Part shown: piece by piece, positions 7,384 through 64,000 of the stretch
Numbering within the stretch: the first letter of the stretch is position 1
Layout: the number at the start of each line of letters is the position of its first letter
From: a virus
DNA length: 64,000 nucleotides
Direction: 5' to 3' (one strand)
Virus record (IMG/VR): IMGVR_UViG_3300029893_000004
Coordinates: 18,096 to 82,095 of that record
The notes under the pieces: model-generated
The model's input: only the letters and a program-made list of their open reading frames with translations
Told to the model about the DNA's origin: nothing
Databases searched by the model: none
Made by a program: the position numbers and the translations under genes

Positions 7384-9569
7384 TTCCAGCTCTCCGGCTC
7401 GGGCGCGAGGTACGACGCCAGCGGCTGCAGGCGCGTGACCATGATCTGCGTCTGGGCGTTGGCGACGGCGCCGGTCGCGGGGTCGATCTGGAACGCCTTG
7501 ACGACGCCCTCGATGTAGCCGTGGCTCGGCGGATCACCGTCGTCGCTCGTGTCGGTGAGCAGCAGCTTGTGGCCGACCAGCGCCCGGGCGTCGAGCCACG
7601 GGACCGTGACGGAGCCGCCGAACATGCGCGGGAGCGGGTGGTTCCAGCGAAAGAGCGTCTCGTTGAAGTCGCGCACCTGCTCGGCGTAGCCGCCGCCGGT
7701 GAGGTCCTCGATCTCCTCCTCGGTCAGCGTCTGGTCGTCGAGCGCGCCCACGAACTCGGGCGAGAACAGGAAGCGCGCCTCGACGTCCATGCTGCGCAGG
7801 CCGTGCGGGTAGATGCGCGGCGCGTCGATGGCCGGGATGCGCCCTGCCCCGCCGCCGACCATCTCGTCCCAGATGGGCCCCGTGACTTCGCTCGTGGCCG
7901 GCGGCCGCGCGAAGAAGTAGTTGAAGCGCTCGGTTCCTCCGCGGCCGAGGTCCTCGGCGAGCAGGTCGCCCCAGCGCAGCGTGCAGGCCGGGAGCGCGTC
8001 CCAGTCGGCCTTGTCCAGCGGGCGGCGCCGGAACACGACGACGGGCGCCCAGCCGCCGGTCAGGCGCGCCAGCTTGCTCGCGCTGCCGTTCGCCACGCGC
8101 CGCGTGTCGTAGAACAGCTCGCAGAAGACCGGATCGGCCTGCCCGCGCACGAACGCGTCGACCGTGGACTTGCCCATCTGGTAGAGCGTCGATAGCTGCC
8201 ACCAGCGGCCGCGGATGCCGTTGCTCGGGTCGTTGTACGTGGCCAGGTCCAGGACGTCGAGCCAGTCCCAGCGCGGCATGTTGCCGAGCGGGCGGCCGGC
8301 CGCGGTCGTCGTCGGCCGGTTCGTCGCCAGCGCGCGCGCCGCAAGCGGTCCGGGCACGGCGAACGCACCGTCGCCCGACTGCCCGGGGACCGCCTCGACG
8401 GCCTCGGGCTTCGACAGGTCGGGGGCGGCCTCTGCCTCGATGGCGTCGTCGGTCGTCGGCGCGTCGTCGGTCGACGTCTCGACGGTGCCGGCGCCAGGCA
8501 CGGGCTTCAGCGCGAGGAACGCCGCAACGTCCGCTGCGCTCGGGACCAGCGCCGGGTTGGTCGGCTTGCCCTTGGCCCAGATCGGCCGCGTGTCTCCGCC
8601 GTCTCCCGTCTCGCCGATGTCGTAGTGCACGAACGTGGCGTAGAAGATGACGCCGAAGCTGGCCGGCAGGTCGCCGGCGGCGATGGCGTCGCTGATCTTC
8701 TCCGCGACCTGCAGCGGCGTGAGCCCGGCCACGCGGATGTCGGCGGCCTTGCCCAGCAGATGGCGCGAGCGGGGCGCGCTCGGATTGATCTTCTGCTGCG
8801 CCCTCTTGCTGCGGAAGCCGCCGGCGGGCGTGATGGTCACGGCCGCGTTGTTGAAGTAGTTGTCGCGCAGCGTCTGCAGGTGCCCGGCGAGCGTCGCGAG
8901 GTTCGCCTTCTGCGTGGCGTCCGGCGGGTCGTCGCCCGGAATCAGGAACTCCCGGATGTGGAAGTTCGTCGTCAACTGCCCCTCTTTCAGGGGCGACGGC
9001 GCGGGCGGCTTCTGCGGGATGGCCGGGGCCTGCGGCGGGGTGGGCTCGTTCGGCAGCGGCGTAGCCTTGATGATGCGCCGCGGACGGAAGACCTCCTCGA
9101 ACAAGTGGCGCAGGATGTCGCGCGGCGCGTACTCGGACGGCGTGAGCACGCGCGCGACTGTCTCCATGTTCGCGCTGAGCATGCCCGGGAGCGTCGGCAG
9201 GTTCGCGTCGAAGCGGAACTCGTGCACCTCGAACGGCTTGCCGACGTGACGGGCAACGATCGTGTACGCGCGCTGCACGGCGCCCGAACGGTCGACGCGC
9301 TTGGAGCGGGTCACGGAGTCGACCAGCGCCACATGCACGCGCTCGCCGTACGGGCCTTGCTCGCGCACGATGAGCCAGTCGTCGTCAGCGATGATCCGCC
9401 GCGGGTCGGGCCGGTCGGCCGGCCACTTGAACTGGACGGCGAGCGGCCAGGAGACGCGCGCCATGTGCTCCTGGATCTGGTAGCCGGTCAGATACGGCGT
9501 GAGCTCGTGGACGGAGCCCGCGTGCGTATAGACGGTCGCCAGGACGCGTGAGTCGGGAAACATCGTCAC
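7380..9569 (-). CDS. Baseplate hub protein with inserted M15-type peptidase
   Basis: 729 aa. Residues 1-180 and about 400-729 look like a gpD-type hub or late-control protein (C-terminal MVTRLQPLASYLAP). Between them, after a Pro-rich linker, residues about 195-330 form a peptidase M15A domain: SRHLLGKAADIR supplies His270 and Asp277, and FVHYDIG supplies His315, the expected zinc ligands. Such enzymes cut peptidoglycan cross-links, so the virion would carry its own cell-wall hydrolase for DNA entry. A second low-complexity acidic linker (about residues 350-410) follows. The gene overlaps both neighbours by four bases. Domain call is strong; hub assignment rests on position. Confidence 0.82.
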   Translation of the reverse strand: MTMFPDSRVLATVYTHAGSVHELTPYLTGYQIQEHMARVSWPLAVQFKWPADRPDPRRIIADDDWLIVREQGPYGERVHVALVDSVTRSKRVDRSGAVQRAYTIVARHVGKPFEVHEFRFDANLPTLPGMLSANMETVARVLTPSEYAPRDILRHLFEEVFRPRRIIKATPLPNEPTPPQAPAIPQKPPAPSPLKEGQLTTNFHIREFLIPGDDPPDATQKANLATLAGHLQTLRDNYFNNAAVTITPAGGFRSKRAQQKINPSAPRSRHLLGKAADIRVAGLTPLQVAEKISDAIAAGDLPASFGVIFYATFVHYDIGETGDGGDTRPIWAKGKPTNPALVPSAADVAAFLALKPVPGAGTVETSTDDAPTTDDAIEAEAAPDLSKPEAVEAVPGQSGDGAFAVPGPLAARALATNRPTTTAAGRPLGNMPRWDWLDVLDLATYNDPSNGIRGRWWQLSTLYQMGKSTVDAFVRGQADPVFCELFYDTRRVANGSASKLARLTGGWAPVVVFRRRPLDKADWDALPACTLRWGDLLAEDLGRGGTERFNYFFARPPATSEVTGPIWDEMVGGGAGRIPAIDAPRIYPHGLRSMDVEARFLFSPEFVGALDDQTLTEEEIEDLTGGGYAEQVRDFNETLFRWNHPLPRMFGGSVTVPWLDARALVGHKLLLTDTSDDGDPPSHGYIEGVVKAFQIDPATGAVANAQTQIMVTRLQPLASYLAPEPESWK

Positions 9570-17714: not shown

Positions 17715-18239
17715 TCATCCGAGCGTGGCGCGCAGGACGGCGTCCGCGCTGCCCGCGACGTACGACGCGATGCGGAAGTAGACCTCCCGCTGCCCGATGG
17801 CGCTGCGGTACTCGCGATGCGACGTCACCGCCGCGTACGAGTCGACCAGAACCCAGATCCAGTCACCGGCGAGCGTGCCGTCGGTGTGCACGTCCGTGCG
17901 GGCCCAGACCTCGACGCCGACCGCGCCGCCCTTGGTGTCGACGTGCCAGATCACCTCGTCGCCGTCGCGGGCGGCGGGGAAGCTGGCGGGCGTCGTCGTC
18001 GGGCCCGGCTGGTCGGTGTTCGGGTCGTTGGTGTCCGCGGCGCTGATCGTGCGCGTGAAGAACAGCGGGCCGTCCGCCTCGCGCTCGCCCGTGAGCGTGG
18101 CGCGGTAGCGCACGGCCGGGCCCACGTTGCGCGTGACGAGCGCCCTGGTCGGGATGTCGAAGGACTGCGCGACGACGCGCGCCGGACTCGGGCGGTGGTC
18201 CGTCTGCTTGTCGCGGCCCACGGGGCGCTTGTCGGCCAT
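17715..18239 (-). CDS. Structural protein, capsid-to-neck block
   Basis: 174 aa, starting MADKRPVGRDKQTDHRPSP. It is beta-rich with a Trp pair (VIWHVDTKGGAVGVEVWART; GDWIWVLVDSY), which suggests a compact decoration or fibre-like fold. No family recognised. It lies three bases from the connector gene and belongs to the virion operon by position and codon use. Confidence 0.55.
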   Translation of the reverse strand: MADKRPVGRDKQTDHRPSPARVVAQSFDIPTRALVTRNVGPAVRYRATLTGEREADGPLFFTRTISAADTNDPNTDQPGPTTTPASFPAARDGDEVIWHVDTKGGAVGVEVWARTDVHTDGTLAGDWIWVLVDSYAAVTSHREYRSAIGQREVYFRIASYVAGSADAVLRATLG

Positions 18240-55762: not shown

Positions 55763-56179
55763 CTACGTCGGGATGGGCGGGCGCGTCGTCGCCAGCGGCT
55801 CGGGACGCCGCTGCGCAAGCTCCACGACGGGCGCCACCGCAGCCGAACGCGCGCAGCGCTCACGGGACGCGGCGGCCCACTTCGGGTCGAGCTCTGACAG
55901 GATGACCGACCGGCCCAGCGTCAGCGCCGCCTCGCCGGTCGCGCCCGAGCCCGCGAAGACGTACAGCGAGCCGTTCGGCCTGAGCACCCGCTGCCACTGC
56001 TCGCAGAGCTGCCCGATCCACGCGACGAACGCCTCGGGCCGATCCCACTGCCGGTCCCACGCCTCGCCCTTCACCCGGTAGAACGGCGGGTCGGTCAGCA
56101 CGAGGTCGACGCTGTTGTCTGGCAGCGCGCGCAGCACGTCCAAGGCGTCGCGCTCGTGCACGGCGTAGGTGGTCCCCAT
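55763..56179 (-). pseudogene. Internally deleted DNA methyltransferase
   Basis: 138 codons. It starts like an N6/N4 methyltransferase: YAVHERDALDVLRALPDNSV then DLVLTDPPF (motif IV). LRPNGSLYVFAG is joined directly to SGATGEAALTLGRSVILSEL, the SAM-binding motif I region, so 100 or more residues between them are missing. The frame ends in TAG at 55763, but reading through would give GASQLDLFATG and TGA at 55727, a normal methyltransferase ending. It therefore carries both an internal deletion and a late amber. Activity is unlikely. Confidence 0.65.
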
Positions 56180-56215: not shown

Positions 56216-56415
56216 GCTAACGCTATCGCATTCCCGCGTAAGTTCCGGTACTTGGCGCGCGCGCGCGGTTCAGAGGATGCGCGGCTAACGTTATCCAGGC
56301 GCGCCCCTGACGTTTAGCGCCCGGATCGCGTGCATTTTGATGTCAGGATAACGTTAGGCTACACGTATCCGAACGAAATTGCAAGGGAACCGGATAACGT
56401 TAGCTAACGTTATCC
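56216..56415. repeat. Iteron cluster and 24-bp palindrome, possible origin or operator
   Basis: Copies of a GGATAACGTTAGC-type word: 56216-56227 (one mismatch), 56284-56296, 56346-56359 (inverse), and a perfect 24-bp palindrome at 56392-56415 made of two inverted copies. The palindrome contains the dnaB stop codon. The rest of the 230-bp gap (56180-56409) is lower in G+C and has no gene. It may be a replication origin or a regulator array. Confidence 0.6.
56356..56384 (-). promoter_or_regulatory. Promoter of the methyltransferase-terminase genes
   Basis: Minus strand TTGCAA (56384-56379), 17 bp with CGTTCGGAT (56367-56375), TAGCCT (56361-56356). One iteron copy overlaps its -10 side, so regulation by the iteron-binding protein is possible. 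Confidence 0.5.
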
Positions 56416-57747
56416 CTCCCGCTGCGTCAGGTTGTCGAACCGCGAGAACTCCCCCGTGAACCGCACCTTGACGGTCCCCGTTGGCCCGTTCCGGTGCTTC
56501 GCCACGATGATCTCCGCGATGCCCTTGTCGTCGCTGTCCGCGTGGTACACCTCATCGCGGTACACGAAGCAGATCACGTCCGCGTCCTGCTCGATGGCGC
56601 CCGACTCACGCAGGTCGCTCATCATCGGCCGCTTGTCGGCTCGCGACTCGAGGCCGCGGTTCAACTGCGAGAGCGCGATGACCGGGATGTTCAGCTCCTT
56701 CGCCAAGCCCTTGAGCCCCCGGCTGATCTCGCTGATCTCCTGCTCGCGCGTGCCGTTCTTTCGCGTGCTACTGGCCCGCATGAGCTGTAGGTAGTCGACC
56801 ACGATCAGGTCGAGCCCGCCGTCCATGGCGAGGCGGCGCGCCCGGGCCCGAACGTCCAGCACGGTCACCGCCGGGGTCTCCTCGATGTACACCGGAAGCT
56901 GCGTCAGCCGCTCGTATGCGCCCGTGAGCCGCGGCCACTCGCCGTCAGACAGCCACCCGGACCGAACGCGGTTCAGCTCGATCTTGGCCTCGCTGGCCGC
57001 GATGCGGTCGGCGAGCTGCAGGTCGCCCATCTCCAGCGACCACACGAGCGCCCGGGCGCCGGCAAGCCGCGCCGCGTTCATGGCGATGTTCACAGCGAAC
57101 GTGGTCTTGCCCATCGCAGGGCGCCCGGCGACGATGATCAGGTCCGAGGGCTGCAGGCCGAGCAGCATCTCGTCCAGGTCACTGAACCCCGTCGTCGTGC
57201 CCGTCACGCCCTGACCGCGCCGGTCGAAGCGCTCGCGCATGACCTGCCAGTGCCGACCCATGAGCGTCTTCAGGCTCTTCGCGCCCTTCGCCCGGCTGTC
57301 GACCGCCTCGAGCATGACGCGCTGCGCCTGATCGACGAACTCCTCGGTCGGCACCTGCTCGTCGTACCCGACGCGGATCGTCTCCTGCGCCGCGTGCAGG
57401 ATCTCCCGGCGCCGCGCCTTCTCGCGCACCTTGCGCGCGTAGGTCTCGACGGCAGACAGCGACGGACACTGTTCGAGCAGCAGGCTCACGTACGTGAGCC
57501 CGCCGCAGCGGTCGAGGTTGCCGTCCTGGCGGAGCTGCGCGGCGACCGTCAGCGGGTCGATCGGCTCACCGCGGCCCATGAGCGCGCACATGGCCTCGAA
57601 CACGAGCTGGTGCGACTGCCGATGGAAGTCACCGGCCTTGACGTGCTCCAGCGCCACGGGCAGCAGCTTCTCGTCGAGCAGGATGCCGCCGAGCACCGCT
57701 GCCTCCGCCTCCAGGTCCATCGGCGGCGTGCGGATTGACTCGCCCAT
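56410..57747 (-). CDS. dnaB: Replicative DNA helicase DnaB
   Basis: 445 aa from ATG 57747. N-terminal domain (MDLEAEAAVLGGILLDEKLL), then the RecA-like core: GRPAMGKTTFAVNIA (Walker A, residues 208-216), LIVVDYLQLM (Walker B) and KHRNGPTGTVKVRFTGEF at the end, all standard DnaB motifs. The hexamer unwinds DNA at the fork. A separate loader is encoded nearby. Normal length. Confidence 0.95.
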   Translation of the reverse strand: MGESIRTPPMDLEAEAAVLGGILLDEKLLPVALEHVKAGDFHRQSHQLVFEAMCALMGRGEPIDPLTVAAQLRQDGNLDRCGGLTYVSLLLEQCPSLSAVETYARKVREKARRREILHAAQETIRVGYDEQVPTEEFVDQAQRVMLEAVDSRAKGAKSLKTLMGRHWQVMRERFDRRGQGVTGTTTGFSDLDEMLLGLQPSDLIIVAGRPAMGKTTFAVNIAMNAARLAGARALVWSLEMGDLQLADRIAASEAKIELNRVRSGWLSDGEWPRLTGAYERLTQLPVYIEETPAVTVLDVRARARRLAMDGGLDLIVVDYLQLMRASSTRKNGTREQEISEISRGLKGLAKELNIPVIALSQLNRGLESRADKRPMMSDLRESGAIEQDADVICFVYRDEVYHADSDDKGIAEIIVAKHRNGPTGTVKVRFTGEFSRFDNLTQREG

Positions 57748-57748
57748 C

Positions 57749-58423
57749 TCACGCCTCCAGCAGCCCGCACTCCCGCATCGCCGTCCGCAGCTTGCCCCGG
57801 GCCCGCGCCAGCGTGCGCCCGACCTTGGTGTGGTTCGCGACCGGCTCACCGCCGGACGTGGTCATCCACCCGAGCCGCCGGGCCACCTCGCCGTAGGACA
57901 GCTCCCCGCGCCTGAGCCGCGCGCCGCTCGGGCTGCCGGCCCGCGTGCGGCGCTGGCGGCCGGGCGTGCTGCTGTCGCAGGCCCGCGTCTTGCCCTGCGC
58001 GTCGCGCGCCCCGCGCCGGTCCATGACCAGCTCCTCGCGCTCGTCGATGTACACGGGCACGCCGCCCCGCGACTCCCGCCGCTGGCCGATCTGGAGGCCG
58101 AACGTCGCGGCGAGCACGGTCTTCTCCTCGTCCGTCAGCGGCCCGTCCGAGCCGCCCACGTCGATGCAGCGCTTGATGTCGGCCACGATCAGCCGGGCGT
58201 CCTCGGCCATGGGCGAGGGCCCGCAGTCGATGAGCCGCATCTCCAGGTCCTCCTGGCTCGTGATGCCCGTGCTCTTGCACGCCTGGAGCTTCGGGCCCCA
58301 GGCGAAGAAGAAGACCAGCGCCGAGTCGACGGACCGGAAGCGGCGCTCCCCGGCGTCCTGATCCTGGCTGCGCTTGCGGAGCGTCGCGAGCGCCCCCCAG
58401 TGCGGATCTCGAACCATGCTCAC
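57749..58423 (-). CDS. HTH-containing replication-region protein
   Basis: 224 aa. N-terminal part (DPHWGALATLRKRSQDQDAG; FFFAWGPKLQACKSTGITSQ) is unassigned; the C-terminal ~70 residues (SYGEVARRLGWMTTSGGEPV then ANHTKVGRTLARARGKLRTA) form a sigma-region-4-like HTH. It overlaps the resolvase gene by ATGA and stops two bases before dnaB. Possibly a middle-gene regulator. Confidence 0.55.
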   Translation of the reverse strand: MSMVRDPHWGALATLRKRSQDQDAGERRFRSVDSALVFFFAWGPKLQACKSTGITSQEDLEMRLIDCGPSPMAEDARLIVADIKRCIDVGGSDGPLTDEEKTVLAATFGLQIGQRRESRGGVPVYIDEREELVMDRRGARDAQGKTRACDSSTPGRQRRTRAGSPSGARLRRGELSYGEVARRLGWMTTSGGEPVANHTKVGRTLARARGKLRTAMRECGLLEA

Positions 58424-58959: not shown

Positions 58960-59521
58960 GCCGCACCTCCCGAGCGCCGTGCTGCCCTTCTGCGGGCCGC
59001 TCGGGGGTCACCCCCTCGCCGTTGCCCGGGTTCCGGTTACAATCCCGTCCTGCGGGCTGCTGGGTGCCTTCTCGTGGCGATTCGTGGTCGACCGTCGGGC
59101 GCGGTCTGCACGTCAGGCGCTCCACCGGGATCGCGGCAGCGACCGGCGACCGGTAGAACGCCGCGACCGACGCCCCGTGCCCGTTGATGCGCGACAGGGC
59201 GATGCGCCGGCCGTCGATGGCCGCGATCTTGTCGCCGTCGACGAGGGTCTGGCGCTTGCCGTCGACGTGCGTCCAAGGCGCGCGAACGAAGCACACGAGC
59301 CCCCAGGCGGGCCGGTAGCCGACGACGCTCCACAGCTCGCCGAGCGTCCAGCCGCGCTCGATGGCCACGCGCTCGATGCGGCGCACGGTCTCGATGGCGT
59401 AGCGGCTCACGCGCGGCTCCTCGGCGTGCGCAAAGCTCACGCCCTGGCAGCGGCAGCACACGAGCCGCCCGTCCCAGCGCGCCTCAAGCGGCGTCGTGCA
59501 CGTGGTGCAGTTCAGCGCCAT
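58952..59521 (-). CDS. Zinc-ribbon protein of the replication block
   Basis: 189 aa from ATG 59521. N-terminal zinc ribbon ALNCTTCTTPLEARWDGRLV then CCRCQG. The middle is beta-rich (AWGLVCFVRAPWTHVDGKRQ), and the end (residues ~155-189) is low complexity. It overlaps the helicase-loader gene by ten bases. Likely a replication or repair accessory factor; family not identified. Confidence 0.6.
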   Translation of the reverse strand: MALNCTTCTTPLEARWDGRLVCCRCQGVSFAHAEEPRVSRYAIETVRRIERVAIERGWTLGELWSVVGYRPAWGLVCFVRAPWTHVDGKRQTLVDGDKIAAIDGRRIALSRINGHGASVAAFYRSPVAAAIPVERLTCRPRPTVDHESPREGTQQPAGRDCNRNPGNGEGVTPERPAEGQHGAREVRHG

Positions 59522-60258
59522 CGCCCGTGCACCTCCTGCCCGCGGCCGGCCTTGGCGTACAGGCGCGAGGCCAGTCGGTCGCCAGCCCACGCCACGAGCT
59601 CGTCGTCGGTGCAGTTCGTGGTCACGATCAGCGCACGGCCAGCCTCGGAGCGCCGATACAGCAGGGTCTCGATCTGGTCACGGTCACGGTCGGTGCGCTC
59701 GCGAAGCTGACCCACGTCGTCGAGCGCGAGCAGCGGCACGCGGGTGAGCGTGGCCATGGCCTCGCGCGCGTCCCACTGCCGGGGGTTCTGGTAGCCGGTC
59801 AGGCGCACGAGGTCGACGAGGTCGGCCTCCGTGAGCACCGCGCACGCCGTGCCCTGCTCGCACAGGCGCTTGACCGTGTGCAGGGCCAAGAACGTCTTGC
59901 CGGCGCCTGGGGAGCCGCCGAGCACGACCGTCGACCGGCGCTCGGGCATCTCGCACAGCAGCGCCCAAGCGGCCTTGTTGCTGGCGCGGGCGTCGTCGCG
60001 GATGACCAGATCCTCGCGCAGCTTGCGCCGGTGCCGCTGTGCGACGTCCGGGTCGCAGTAGCGCAGGGCGGCCGTGATGAGCTGCCCGACGTCGACCTGC
60101 GCCCGACGTCGACCTGCGCACAGCGGGCAGGGCTCGGTGGACTCGTAGACGCCGCCCATGCGCGCCGTGAAGTACCGGGTCACGATGCGGCCCGGGCACG
60201 GACCGGCGTCCGTGGGCGCCTCGCACGCGACGGTGACGGGAGCGGGAAGCTCAGCCAT
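59512..60258 (-). CDS. DnaC-like helicase loader
   Basis: 248 aa. A Cys cluster at residues ~12-47 (GPCPGRIVTRY, EPCPLCAG) may bind zinc. The AAA+ core has GGSPGAGKT (residues 114-122), LLALDDVG (Walker B) and later TNCTDDELVAWAGDRLASRL with the sensor/arginine finger. It loads DnaB at the origin. It lies between initiator and dnaB, and is coupled to the initiator by an 8-base overlap. Confidence 0.85.
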   Translation of the reverse strand: MAELPAPVTVACEAPTDAGPCPGRIVTRYFTARMGGVYESTEPCPLCAGRRRAQVDVGQLITAALRYCDPDVAQRHRRKLREDLVIRDDARASNKAAWALLCEMPERRSTVVLGGSPGAGKTFLALHTVKRLCEQGTACAVLTEADLVDLVRLTGYQNPRQWDAREAMATLTRVPLLALDDVGQLRERTDRDRDQIETLLYRRSEAGRALIVTTNCTDDELVAWAGDRLASRLYAKAGRGQEVHGRWR

Positions 60259-61234
60259 TGTCGGCCTCCTCGAGCGGCGCGTAGGGGTCCATCGCCGCCA
60301 GCTCTTCGGGCGTAAAGTGCCAGTGCGGAATCCAGCGGTACGGCGACTGCTTCGGCTTCGGGTCCTCGCGCTTGATGAACCGGTGCGCGAAGCGCTGCAG
60401 GCTCGACTGGTAGCTCTTCACAGGCCCGAGCAGGACGCGCGGCTTGTTGCTCCCGGGCTTCGCTTGGTACGTCGCCCAGTCGCGGATCGCCCGGGTGTGG
60501 TCGGTCTCGGGGTAGCCGTCGCACACGTAGGCGAGCACGTTGCGGTCGGCGTCGTCGAGGGTGACCGTCCGGCCCGAACGGCGGATGACGTCGCAGGCCG
60601 CGACGAACGCATCCCAGACCGGATCGGGAGCGGTGTCGTCCTCGCGCGCGCGCGCGGGAGACTCTTCGGGATCTGCTACACCACTCTTGGGATCTGTCAT
60701 GGCATGGCATGGCATGGCCGCGCGCGCGCGCGCGGAAGGTTCTTGCAACCCCTCGTTCTGCAAAGACTCTGGCGTACCGGCGTTGTACGGCTGCGTACCA
60801 GAAATGTACGGGCGATGTACGGGCGATGTACCGCCAGCGTACGAGCGCGGTACAGCCGCGTACGAGCGCGTACCGTCGTCGGGGGTCTCGGGGGCGTCCT
60901 GCGACGGCTCGCGGTCCATGACGCTTCGCTCGCGAACCACCTTCGCTGAGACCGTCGCGCGCGGTCCGCTGGTGTTCTCTGTGAGCTTCAGGACGCCGTC
61001 GCGACGCTCGACCAAGCCGACCGCGACCATGTCCTCGATGGCCCTCTCGATGCGGCTCGGGCGCGCCTCGTTGCCCGTCATGGCCTTGACCGTCAGCACG
61101 TGGTCCGGCAGGCAGTCGTTCTCGTCCGCGCACAGCCACATCTCCAGGTAGAGGTTGCGTGCAGCGGCTGCCAGGTGCCGGTAGCCCGGGCTCCAGTGCA
61201 GACGGAAGGGAATGCTCTTGCGCTTCTGCTTCAC
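60251..61234 (-). CDS. Replication initiator with origin-like repeats inside the gene
   Basis: 327 aa from a GTG at 61234 (GTGA overlap). N-terminus (SIPFRLHWSPGYRHLAAAAR, RIERAIEDMVAVGLVERRDG) is a winged helix typical of phage replisome organisers. A variable linker follows, encoded by a run of GTAC and CATGG repeats, then a C-terminal domain (AFVAACDVIRRSGRTVTLDD; AIRDWATYQAKPGSNKPRVL) and FAHRFIKREDPKPKQSPYRW. It probably binds the origin and recruits the loader and DnaB. As in lambda O, the origin may lie within this gene. Confidence 0.75.
   Translation of the reverse strand: MKQKRKSIPFRLHWSPGYRHLAAAARNLYLEMWLCADENDCLPDHVLTVKAMTGNEARPSRIERAIEDMVAVGLVERRDGVLKLTENTSGPRATVSAKVVRERSVMDREPSQDAPETPDDGTRSYAAVPRSYAGGTSPVHRPYISGTQPYNAGTPESLQNEGLQEPSARARAAMPCHAMTDPKSGVADPEESPARAREDDTAPDPVWDAFVAACDVIRRSGRTVTLDDADRNVLAYVCDGYPETDHTRAIRDWATYQAKPGSNKPRVLLGPVKSYQSSLQRFAHRFIKREDPKPKQSPYRWIPHWHFTPEELAAMDPYAPLEEADNG
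60698..60717. repeat. Four tandem CATGG units
   Basis: CATGG is repeated four times with no gap, followed by an alternating CG run to about 60735. The 5-bp unit does not preserve the reading frame, so the repeat is kept at DNA level, next to the GTAC array. Confidence 0.6.
60774..60873. repeat. Ten GTAC sites spaced one helical turn apart
   Basis: GTAC begins at 60774, 60785, 60795, 60806, 60817, 60828, 60839, 60850, 60860 and 60870. Spacing is 10 or 11 bp throughout, so all lie on the same face of the helix. The spacing is not a multiple of three, although the region is coding, which argues for a DNA-binding role, most simply an origin. Confidence 0.8.
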
Positions 61235-61521
61235 GCGCTCGTCTCCTGTTTCGTGCCCATGTTGTCCGTGAACTCCGCCAACAGCTCGCCGCCCGGCGTC
61301 CACCAGAGCTCCATGAGCCCCGCATTGCGGTTCTCCTCGAGCGCCCGGTGCAGGGCGTGGGTGAACACGCCCATGTGCGCCAGACACGCGTCGTGCCAGC
61401 GCGCTTTGCCGTCCGGGTCTACGAGGGTGCGTAGCGCCAGGTGTACGAGCTGCGCGGTCGGCGACAGCGCGACGAAGCGCGGGTCGTGGATGAGGTGGTG
61501 CGGGATGGTGCAGTGCTTCAT
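61231..61521 (-). CDS. Helical hypothetical protein upstream of the initiator
   Basis: 96 aa from ATG 61521 (MKHCTIPHHLIHDPRFVALS). The helical pattern LSPTAQLVHLALRTLVDPDG and CLAHMGVFTHALHRALEENR resembles a winged-helix replication or regulatory protein. Coupled to both neighbours. Confidence 0.55.
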   Translation of the reverse strand: MKHCTIPHHLIHDPRFVALSPTAQLVHLALRTLVDPDGKARWHDACLAHMGVFTHALHRALEENRNAGLMELWWTPGGELLAEFTDNMGTKQETSA

Positions 61522-61880
61522 GCTGCGCCTCCTGTGATGCGCTCGACCATCGCGATCCGCTCCCCGACCCACCGCGCAACTGGCAGCGCCCATGCGTTGC
61601 CGATCGCCTTGTAGCGCAGGCCGGGCGGGCACTCGGCCGCCGGTTTGCCGTCCCACGGGATGCGCGTGTGGTCGTCGGGAATGCCCTGCCAGCGTTCGAA
61701 CTCGCGCGGGGTTGGCCTGCGGATGTAGGAGCGCTCGATCGCACCGCAGCGGCAGCCATGACCCATGTCGCAGTCGACGTCGTGCGCGGGCCCCTGCGTG
61801 ATGCGAATGCCCCTCTCGGTCATCTCGCCGGCGGTCGCGGTGACGCCGCTCGCTGTCTCCGCGACGCGGAATTGCAGCAC
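61518..61880 (-). pseudogene. C-terminal remnant of a C5-cytosine methyltransferase
   Basis: 120 codons. The end matches Dcm-type enzymes: RRPTPREFERWQGIPDDHTR, then LRYKAIGNAWALPVARWVGE (motifs IX-X). Motifs I to VIII, including SAM-binding and the Pro-Cys catalytic motif, are absent. A start at ATG 61880 exists, so a short protein may still be made. ATGA overlap with the next gene. Confidence 0.6.
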
Positions 61881-61913: not shown

Positions 61914-63689
61914 TCATGGCGCCCCCTTCACACGCGCCGGCAGCCGCACCGCCCGGGGCCCTCCCGCGTGCAGTTGCCGCAGCATGGTCTCGACTTCGCC
62001 GTGCGTGAGGTCCGCGGCCTGCTCGGGCGTGATGCGCACGCCACGGCGCCGCAGCTCACCGACGGACGCCGCGCTCGCGTCGCGGCTCGCGCCCACGAGC
62101 GGCGTGCTGCGGCCGGCGTTGACGGCCTTCTCGGTGGCCGTGATGTCGCGCACGGCCTCGCCGACTTCCGCGGGAGACGCCGGGCCGATCTGGATACCTG
62201 ACCGCGGCGGGCTGAAGCGGCGCGCCTCCTGCTCGCACCGGCCGATCGCGTCGTCGGCGTGCTGGCGCTCGGCCAGCACGTGCCACCGCCACTTCCCGCG
62301 GCGCTGGTGCATGTGCACGATCTTCCACCGCCCGGCGGTCGCGGCGCCGTCTCGCTCGGGCGTGTGGCGGCGCACGACCAGCATCCCGGCCTCGGGGCGC
62401 CCGAGCGACAGGACGAGGCCCATCTCGTGCTCCAGCCACTGGTAGCGGCGCCCGCGCGGGATGCGCAGCAGATTGACCTCGCGCGCGGCCCGCGCCACGG
62501 CCGTGAAGCTCTCGAACGACTTGCCCCCGCGCTCGTCCTCGCGCACGACGCGCCGGACGGCCTCCTTCTGCGACTCGGACAGGTCCTCATCGTCGTCGTC
62601 GGGCAGGCCGCCGATCATGGGCAGCGACACGAGCGCGCCGTCCTCGAGCCGGCCGGTGACGTCCAGAACGAGGCACAGCGACTTGTCGGGGTGCGTCCGA
62701 AGCCCGCGGCCGACCATCTGCGTGAGCAGGCCCTTGCTCTGCGTCGGCCGCACGAGCAGCACGCACGACACGGACCGCTCGTCGAAGCCTTCGGTGAGGA
62801 TTCCGACGGACAGCAGCACGGACAGCGCGCCCGAGGCCAGGTCGGCGTACAGCCGCTGACGCTCCTCGCGGGGCGTGCCTTCGTCGACGTGCGCCGCGTG
62901 CACGCCCGCCGCGCGGAACGCCGCGGCCAGCTTGCGGGCGTGGTCCTTCGTGACACAGAAGCCGATGGTCTTCCGGTCCCGCGCGTGGCGTTTCCACGTC
63001 TCGACGGTCTGCGCGATGACCGACGGCTCGCTCATGATCTGCGCCAGCGGGCGCTCTGCGAAGTCAGCGGCGCCCGGCCGCACGCACGATGAGAGGTCGA
63101 GGTCGAGCGGCACGCTGATCGCCCGCCAGTCGCACAGGTAGCCGCGCTCGATGGCCTCTGCCATGTCGATCGGCTCGTGCCAGTAGTCGTACAGGTCGAG
63201 CCCGATGCCGTCGGCGCGGTTGGGCGTCGCGGTCAGGCCCACAACGAGCGTGTCCGGGCGGAACAGCGCGTGCAGCACCATGCCGTACTGGCTGTTCTCC
63301 GTGCCGTGGTGCGCCTCGTCCACGGCGATGTAGTTGTGGTCGGCGGCCGTGAGCCGCGCGAGGCGCTTGACCTGGGCCGCGCTCTGCACCATGGCCACCG
63401 ACACGTCGCGGCCGAACTGCGACCGGGCGCCCTGGATGCGGCCCACGTTGTCGGGGCCGACGAGCTGGGCGAACTCCCGGATCGCCTGATCGGCGAGCTC
63501 TTCGCGGTGCACCAGGAACAGCGCGCGCAGGCGGCCGTTGCGGCGCAGGACCTCCTCGGCGATGAGGAGGTTCGTGAACGTCTTGCCCGTGCCCGTGGGC
63601 ATGACCAGAAGGCCGCGGCGCTCGCCCGCGTCGTACTTCGCGAAGATGTGGTCGCGGGCGGCGAGCTGGTAGTCGTGGGGGGTCTTCAT
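61914..63689 (-). CDS. SF2 DEAH-box helicase
   Basis: 591 aa from ATG 63689. Motif I MPTGTGKTF (residues 31-37), motif II VDEAHH, motif III LTATPNRADG and motif VI QMVGRGLRTHPDK mark a superfamily 2 helicase, like the helicase part of type III restriction enzymes. The C-terminal third (RIPRGRRYQWLEHEMGLVLS; GKWRWHVLAERQHADDAIG) is a family-specific domain. Likely role: phage DNA replication or repair. It follows a methyltransferase remnant. Confidence 0.85.
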   Translation of the reverse strand: MKTPHDYQLAARDHIFAKYDAGERRGLLVMPTGTGKTFTNLLIAEEVLRRNGRLRALFLVHREELADQAIREFAQLVGPDNVGRIQGARSQFGRDVSVAMVQSAAQVKRLARLTAADHNYIAVDEAHHGTENSQYGMVLHALFRPDTLVVGLTATPNRADGIGLDLYDYWHEPIDMAEAIERGYLCDWRAISVPLDLDLSSCVRPGAADFAERPLAQIMSEPSVIAQTVETWKRHARDRKTIGFCVTKDHARKLAAAFRAAGVHAAHVDEGTPREERQRLYADLASGALSVLLSVGILTEGFDERSVSCVLLVRPTQSKGLLTQMVGRGLRTHPDKSLCLVLDVTGRLEDGALVSLPMIGGLPDDDDEDLSESQKEAVRRVVREDERGGKSFESFTAVARAAREVNLLRIPRGRRYQWLEHEMGLVLSLGRPEAGMLVVRRHTPERDGAATAGRWKIVHMHQRRGKWRWHVLAERQHADDAIGRCEQEARRFSPPRSGIQIGPASPAEVGEAVRDITATEKAVNAGRSTPLVGASRDASAASVGELRRRGVRITPEQAADLTHGEVETMLRQLHAGGPRAVRLPARVKGAP

Positions 63690-63995
63690 CGGGCGGACCC
63701 CGCAAAGAGATCGGCCTGCAACACGTCGTCACGCACGACAACGCCTCGCAGGCGCCCCTGAGCGATCGTCACGTACTCCGGATTGATCTCGCACCCCACG
63801 AACCGCCGGTTCAGTTGCATCGCCACGAGCGCGGGCGGCATGGTCGCGAAGTGGGCGCCTGGGAAGGGTTGCGTTGCGATGGTCCAGACGGTGCGCTTGT
63901 TGCGGCCATCGCCTCCCGGGGTCCACGGTTCCGCTCTCGATCTGCGCCAGCCCGTCGAGGACGTCGGCCGTGATGATGTGGGCGTTGTTGCTCAT
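63686..63995 (-). pseudogene. Shortened and frameshifted DNA methyltransferase
   Basis: MSNNAHIITADVLDGLAQIE from ATG 63995 is an N4/N6 methyltransferase start. One extra G at 63919-63922 breaks the frame; without it the reading continues GGDGRNKRTVWTIATQPFPG, HFATMPPALV, AMQLNRRFVGCEINPEYVTI. Two usual parts are missing: the DPPY motif IV region before GRNKRTVW, and the DPF-GSGTT motif I between PPALV and AMQLN. It ends with an ATGA overlap at the helicase start. Confidence 0.6.
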
Positions 63996-64000
63996 CGCCC

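Follow-up and report, generated by a model that had tools for sequence, protein, structure and literature searches.

We found ten GTAC palindromes arrayed at one per helical turn in the middle of a 327-aa open reading frame (ORF) of a viral genome, and we propose that the array is probably the initiator-binding core of a replication origin located within the gene for the very initiator that binds it. The array, its phasing, the constraint on its DNA letters, the gene neighborhood, and the recurrence of such arrays in known phage initiator genes can all be read from the sequence; we infer that the product of the ORF is the initiator, that it binds GTAC, and that replication starts at the array. 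The best explanation would be an origin of the lambda kind, but made from one-turn-phased palindromic half-sites instead of 18- to 19-bp iterons. The whole stretch of DNA that was analyzed (64,000 nucleotides, hereafter the window) corresponds to positions 18096 to 82095 of a record of 82 kb, in which the array lies at 78.9 kb. The array and its host gene are as follows.

60774 to 60873, no strand assigned: ten copies of the palindrome GTAC spaced 10/11 bp apart, proposed as half-sites for the initiator and as putative origin core.
60251 to 61234, minus strand: 327-aa ORF, proposed replication initiator, with a GTG start and AGGAG 8 bp upstream.
60953 to 61234, minus strand: N-terminal domain of the ORF (residues 1 to 94), proposed to bind DNA on the basis of a low-confidence AlphaFold model and weak profile similarity.

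A recount of the array matched exactly the ten copies and the spacings given in an earlier note on this DNA. The GTAC tetramers start at positions 60774, 60785, 60795, 60806, 60817, 60828, 60839, 60850, 60860, and 60870, with spacings of 11, 10, 11, 11, 11, 11, 11, 10, and 10 bp. The note's further statement, that the sites follow the helical repeat and not a multiple of three although the DNA is coding, also held, with a mean spacing of 10.67 bp and each of the three codon frames represented among the sites (1, 2, 0, 2, 1, 0, 2, 1, 2, and 1 along the gene). No other tetramer forms a 10/11-bp chain of more than four members in the 64-kb window, and in 40 genomes simulated from the 82-kb record with a third-order Markov model, such chains of the 16 palindromic tetramers reached at most three members in 35 genomes and four in the remaining 5. 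GTAC is frequent in the window as a whole (175 copies, versus 85 from dinucleotide shuffles), and the copies outside the array are scattered. The spacers are only ∼47% alike, which sets the array apart from a clean tandem repeat, and we found no conserved unit of 17 to 22 bp, or any unit larger than the tetramer, running across it.

We then asked how far the encoded peptide accounts for the array. In a synonymous resampling of the array peptide, with codon usage taken from the neighboring genes of the phage, 1.9 of the 10 sites were expected and the probability of obtaining all ten was 1.3e-10. Rare codons are used within the array: both valines are encoded by GTA (1% elsewhere) and four of the five glycines by GGT (8% elsewhere). 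When the codons of the linker were shuffled 50,000 times, the chain never exceeded three members. Because all three frames are used and the resampling probability is so low, the array is no mere side effect of the protein sequence, which supports the view that selection acts on the array DNA itself, beyond the peptide that it encodes.

The ORF consists of an N-terminal domain, a low-complexity linker of ∼115 aa, and a C-terminal domain, with the array located mid-ORF in the linker. A single-sequence AlphaFold model gave the N-terminal domain the order helix-strand-strand-helix-strand-strand at low confidence and the linker as a long coil, predicted to be disordered. The pLDDT was 40 for the whole ORF and 47 for the first 94 residues, too poor for a fold search, and at such confidence the winged helix that the earlier note had ascribed to the initiator is conjectural for this N terminus. 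Searches of Pfam and NCBIfam returned no match above the cutoff, PF04492 included, and the best PHROG match was subthreshold (phrog_1408, E = 0.16). The first ∼100 residues ranked 11 to 33 among 6001 fragments scored against profiles of Lin1244-type phage initiators, and the top-scoring fragments that we inspected were mostly initiators themselves. This ranking is suggestive only and may hint at kinship with initiators; when the ORF was compared by profile to the Lin1244 alignment, the probability was only 2%. Searches of IMG/VR, INPHARED, and GTDB genomes detected no relatives of the ORF, nor did a sequence search retrieve an O-type relative whose structure has been solved. As no homologue was found, it is from synteny and architecture that we infer a replication initiator. 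The earlier placement of the array in an initiator gene is thus partly borne out: the mid-ORF position beside a helicase loader and DnaB agrees with it, and the family searches gave the ORF no assignment.

The genes that define this neighborhood are the following.

59512 to 60258, minus strand: DnaC/IstB-like helicase loader, which overlaps the 327-aa ORF at its end (PF01695, 6e-10; phrog_50, 2.5e-24).
56410 to 57849, minus strand: DnaB-type replicative helicase (DnaB_C, 4.9e-105), with a real start probably at about 57744.
61914 to 63689, minus strand: phage DNA helicase of the replication/recombination module (ResIII, 2e-28; phrog_16, 3.7e-80).

In the sense of transcription, the order is ResIII-type helicase, 327-aa ORF, DnaC/IstB-like loader, and DnaB. 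The loader is homologous (E = 8e-5) to the IstB/DnaC-like loader that follows a CATG-array initiator in Vibrio phage 2.095.A, which ties the system of the window to that of this phage. Weak relatives of the loader were retrieved from named phages by tblastn and none from viral contigs by peptide patterns, and a loader of the lambda P type was not found at this locus.

To place the array in a wider context, 2.9 million IMG/VR viral contigs were scanned for at least five palindromic tetramers at 10/11 bp, which yielded 59 loci for GTAC, 51 for CATG, and at least 120 for TGCA. About half to three quarters of the raw pattern matches were near-identical tandem repeats, which were set aside (spacer identity of 0.6 or more). 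Diverged arrays made up 13 of the 47 unique GTAC arrays, 18/43 for CATG, and, among the matches listed, 33/77 for TGCA. The array of the window belongs to this class, with its ten copies inside an ORF and a spacer identity of ∼0.47. Many diverged arrays lie in the middle of ORFs of 200 to 400 aa. When 20 of these ORFs were scanned singly, 12 matched initiation-type PHROGs (E < 1e-3) bearing the names replication initiation, O-like, replisome organizer, primosomal, or DnaD-like, and L035, L049, L101, L209, L220, and L226 matched no family. The same initiator PHROG families recurred in the full GTAC, CATG, and TGCA sets, as tallies of members per family and not as a union count. One GTAC array (L036) lies in the gene of a true O protein (PF04492, E = 1.3e-25; TIGR01610, 1.5e-20). 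A prospective scan for ACGT again found arrays central in ORFs, which were mostly of initiator families; at least one array lay instead in a terminase small-subunit-like gene. We dismissed a special status of GTAC as such, as CATG, TGCA, and ACGT form the same arrays. As a control, we searched for GTAC at 13/14 bp, likewise not a multiple of three, and obtained 30 unique arrays, of which 3 were diverged; none of their host ORFs belonged to initiator families. This control supports the conclusion that the helical spacing matters.

Other arrangements were seen in the same survey. In L025 (positions 7936 to 9441; also in L029 and L040), GTAC arrays flank the central helix-turn-helix domain of a 501-aa ORF, which has weak matches to Phage_rep_O and DnaD_N. 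A-rich or simple-repeat tracts follow the array in L036, L003, and L171. L066 (4817 to 4864), L067, and L069, which were found without selecting for arrays, carry ACGC words at 11-bp steps and then a GGGAA homopurine repeat upstream of DnaB. The replication protein gene of Pseudomonas phage phi297 (L375, 5291 to 6313) contains a cluster of GTGAC/GTCAC, less regularly spaced, and then a GGGACA repeat tract.

We next examined conservation in eleven phages picked only by protein similarity to the initiator of L121 (Lin1244/DUF4373), blind to arrays. In ten of them, a CATG at 0 bp is joined by a second one at 11 bp and by further copies at 21, 22, or 32 bp. The steps are 11 bp throughout in Vibrio phages XM1 and 1.154.O and 11, 10, and 11 bp in Pantoea phage PdC23. 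At the same place, Vibrio phage 1.259.O (L380) has four copies of TCCGGA and one degenerate copy, at 11-bp steps. Among these relatives, the phase survives, and the number of sites, their frame, and the identity of the tetramer change. The earlier note had called for a comparison of relatives for sites kept while codons change; it found no material for the gene of the window and was made on other families, where ten of the eleven Lin1244-type phages keep CATG in phase. Lin1244/Lin1753-type (DUF4373) initiators (XM1, 2.095.A, and PdC23) resemble the window in carrying an in-gene palindromic tetramer at 10/11-bp steps. They differ in having three to five CATG sites instead of ten GTAC, generally followed by an A-rich AAGAT/TTAGA tract (AAGATAAGATTAGA and like), and the protein of the window shows no detectable homology to them beyond the weak signal described above.

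Half-sites at this spacing also occur in O-type genes, namely gene 15 of phi80, orf39 of SfV, and that of Paraburkholderia phage IPK, where contiguous half-sites lie about one turn apart (11, 10, 11, 10, 11, and 10 bp in phi80). Those half-sites are 6-mers of alternating orientation, whereas those of the window are self-palindromic tetramers. On balance, we lean towards the view that many unrelated phage initiator families share one design, in which a palindromic tetramer (GTAC, CATG, TGCA, ACGT, CCGG, and others) is placed once per turn in the initiator's own gene, the tetramer being exchangeable and the 10.5-bp geometry staying, with lambda-type iterons as a special case. To our knowledge, most phage origins are unmapped. 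If true, this design would provide a simple pattern for finding origins in large numbers of uncharacterized phages: a one-turn palindrome array within a gene is easily searched, and our scans pointed mostly to initiator genes, including families of "unknown function." It also suggests that the site specificity of an initiator can shift without loss of the origin, as one family has swapped CATG for CCGG and kept the geometry.

The earlier note had likened the array to the lambda origin in its placement within the gene, with a different site and spacing, and the arrays found centrally in phage initiator genes of unrelated families support this analogy. In lambda, as in the Stx phages P27 and 933W, repeated sites occupy the central part of the initiator gene with the loader directly downstream, and the DnaC/IstB-like gene that overlaps the end of the 327-aa ORF matches that position. 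Lambdoid origins lie mid gene O and comprise iterons and an AT-rich region, O binds as dimers, and the iterons are 19-bp imperfect inverted repeats (PMC7466680). The lambda annotation lists four 18-bp iterons with start-to-start distances of 20, 24, and 23 bp. The window has one tetramer per turn and no larger units instead of such 18- to 19-bp inverted repeats, its ORF lacks (in Pfam and NCBIfam) the PF04492 domain that lambda O carries, and its candidate opening region contains 53 to 57% GC, whereas that of lambda is AT-rich. Known plasmid iterons of the P1 and RK2 type measure ∼17 to 22 bp and lie outside the rep gene. Origins of this kind share helix phasing with the array, in which the 17- to 22-bp direct-repeat unit is absent. 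Their iterons are direct repeats bound by monomers, and disturbing the phase can inactivate the origin (PMC5043065). A full-text search of the open-access literature found no paper on GTAC repeats in phage replication origins and, for related origin repeats, lambda-type and plasmid iterons only.

We also analyzed the DNA beside the array, where we distinguished the following elements, none of them assigned to a strand.

60735 to 60773: lower-GC spacer adjoining the array, with the imperfect repeat TTGCAGAACGAGGGG / TTGCAAGAACCTTCC on the coding strand.
60719 to 60734: (CG)8 alternating tract, the longest of the window.
60657 to 60718: candidate duplex-unwinding element, 53 to 57% GC versus 70% GC for the genome.
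60698 to 60718: pentamer CATGG in about four copies.
60643 to 60656: (CG)7 alternating tract, beyond the candidate unwinding element as seen from the array.

The spacer, the (CG)8 tract, the unstable segment, and the (CG)7 tract are all on the C-terminal side of the array within the gene, and the two tracts are the two longest CG runs of the window. Positions 60660 to 60699 are among the least stable 0.2% of the 40-mers of the window, yet contain ∼53% GC. The candidate unwinding element is only mildly AT-rich, which counts against the origin reading. We speculate that 60657 to 60718 is the opening region and that the Z-DNA-prone CG tracts flanking it could absorb torsional stress. The cumulative GC skew of the record has its maximum at 43.0 kb and its minimum near 81 kb, about half a genome apart. 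The skew, which the earlier note had named as a check, would fit bidirectional replication that starts at the array (78.9 kb); it is too broad for proof, and gene orientation could also yield it.

We propose the following mechanism for such an origin. Each GTAC would be the half-site of one DNA-binding domain. With a site at every 10 to 11 bp, all ten would face the same side of the helix, so that initiator molecules could assemble side by side and polymerize cooperatively into a continuous complex, like the O-some of lambda. This complex would strain or open the weaker adjacent duplex, at 60657 to 60718 between the CG tracts and/or at 60735 to 60773, and the opened single-stranded DNA would pass to the DnaC-like loader and the DnaB helicase encoded immediately downstream.

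Among the alternatives, we weighed whether the array is an operator, bound by the ORF product or a phage repressor for transcription of the replication operon, with the origin elsewhere. An array of palindromes on one face would suit a cooperative repressor, and its location far inside a transcribed gene recalls silencers. Phased GTAC arrays also exist outside initiator genes: bacterial genomes carry them too, some between genes and some within genes that are not obviously initiators, and for this reason the array alone is no proof of an origin. We nevertheless consider an operator unlikely, as the arrays cluster at mid-gene in initiators of unrelated families, the known place of lambdoid origins (PMC7466680); moreover, binding for replication and autoregulation are not mutually exclusive.

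The array could instead be a neutral by-product of slippage that duplicated units of 11 and 21/22 bp in the linker, whose predicted disorder is in keeping with this. Tandem Repeats Finder (TRF) detects relics of 11- and 22-bp repeats in the array, and two spacers are identical (CGGGCGAT). However, the ten tetramers are intact in spite of spacers that have drifted to ∼47% identity, rare codons maintain GTAC, and the Lin1244-type relatives keep the phase despite changes in site number, frame, and tetramer. Slippage repeats as the sole explanation of the arrays were rejected by the codon test and the 13/14-bp control, whose arrays behave differently, and we regard a neutral origin of this array as improbable.

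A partition centromere of a plasmid-like prophage, similar to parC and bound by a ribbon-helix-helix adaptor, seems very improbable to us. parC of R1-type plasmids consists of short direct repeats with a period of ∼11 bp, like that of the array, and intergenic phased GTAC arrays (L325 and L296) could be such sites, but the array is inside a coding sequence beside a helicase loader, and the five neighboring proteins scanned included no ParM/ParR-like product (ribbon-helix-helix adaptor or motor). Just as remote is a cluster of modification or restriction sites kept for methylation. GTAC is palindromic (the RsaI site) and the window contains several methyltransferase-like fragments, but helical phasing is not expected of such a cluster, and other phages build arrays of this kind from CATG, TGCA, and ACGT.

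Several further observations were made in bacterial genomes and in the window. Long phased GTAC arrays of 10 to 13 copies, some of them intergenic, are present in L325 (3518 to 3616), L283 (2157 to 2291), L285 (315 to 439), and L296 (910 to 1094), and related loci of Streptomyces (L318, L336, and L337) contain phased GTAC arrays within larger ORFs. In L281 (1 to 1251) and L312 (1728 to 3185), Lachnospiraceae/Eubacterium proteins resembling AlbA-type ATP-binding regulators have repeated STDK/STEK peptides encoded by 10/11-bp GTAC array DNA, which in L312 lies just before a winged-helix-like C terminus; these two are possibly gene-embedded arrays of a regulator and not of a phage initiator. In the window, the short ORFs at 61518 to 61880, 55763 to 56179, and 63686 to 63998 resemble fragments of DNA methyltransferases (the C-terminal part of a C5-type enzyme and DPPF-type pieces). 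The loader gene contains a perfect 17-bp tandem duplication (GCCCGACGTCGACCTGC, 60084 to 60119), not a multiple of three, which is either a recent event or an assembly artifact.
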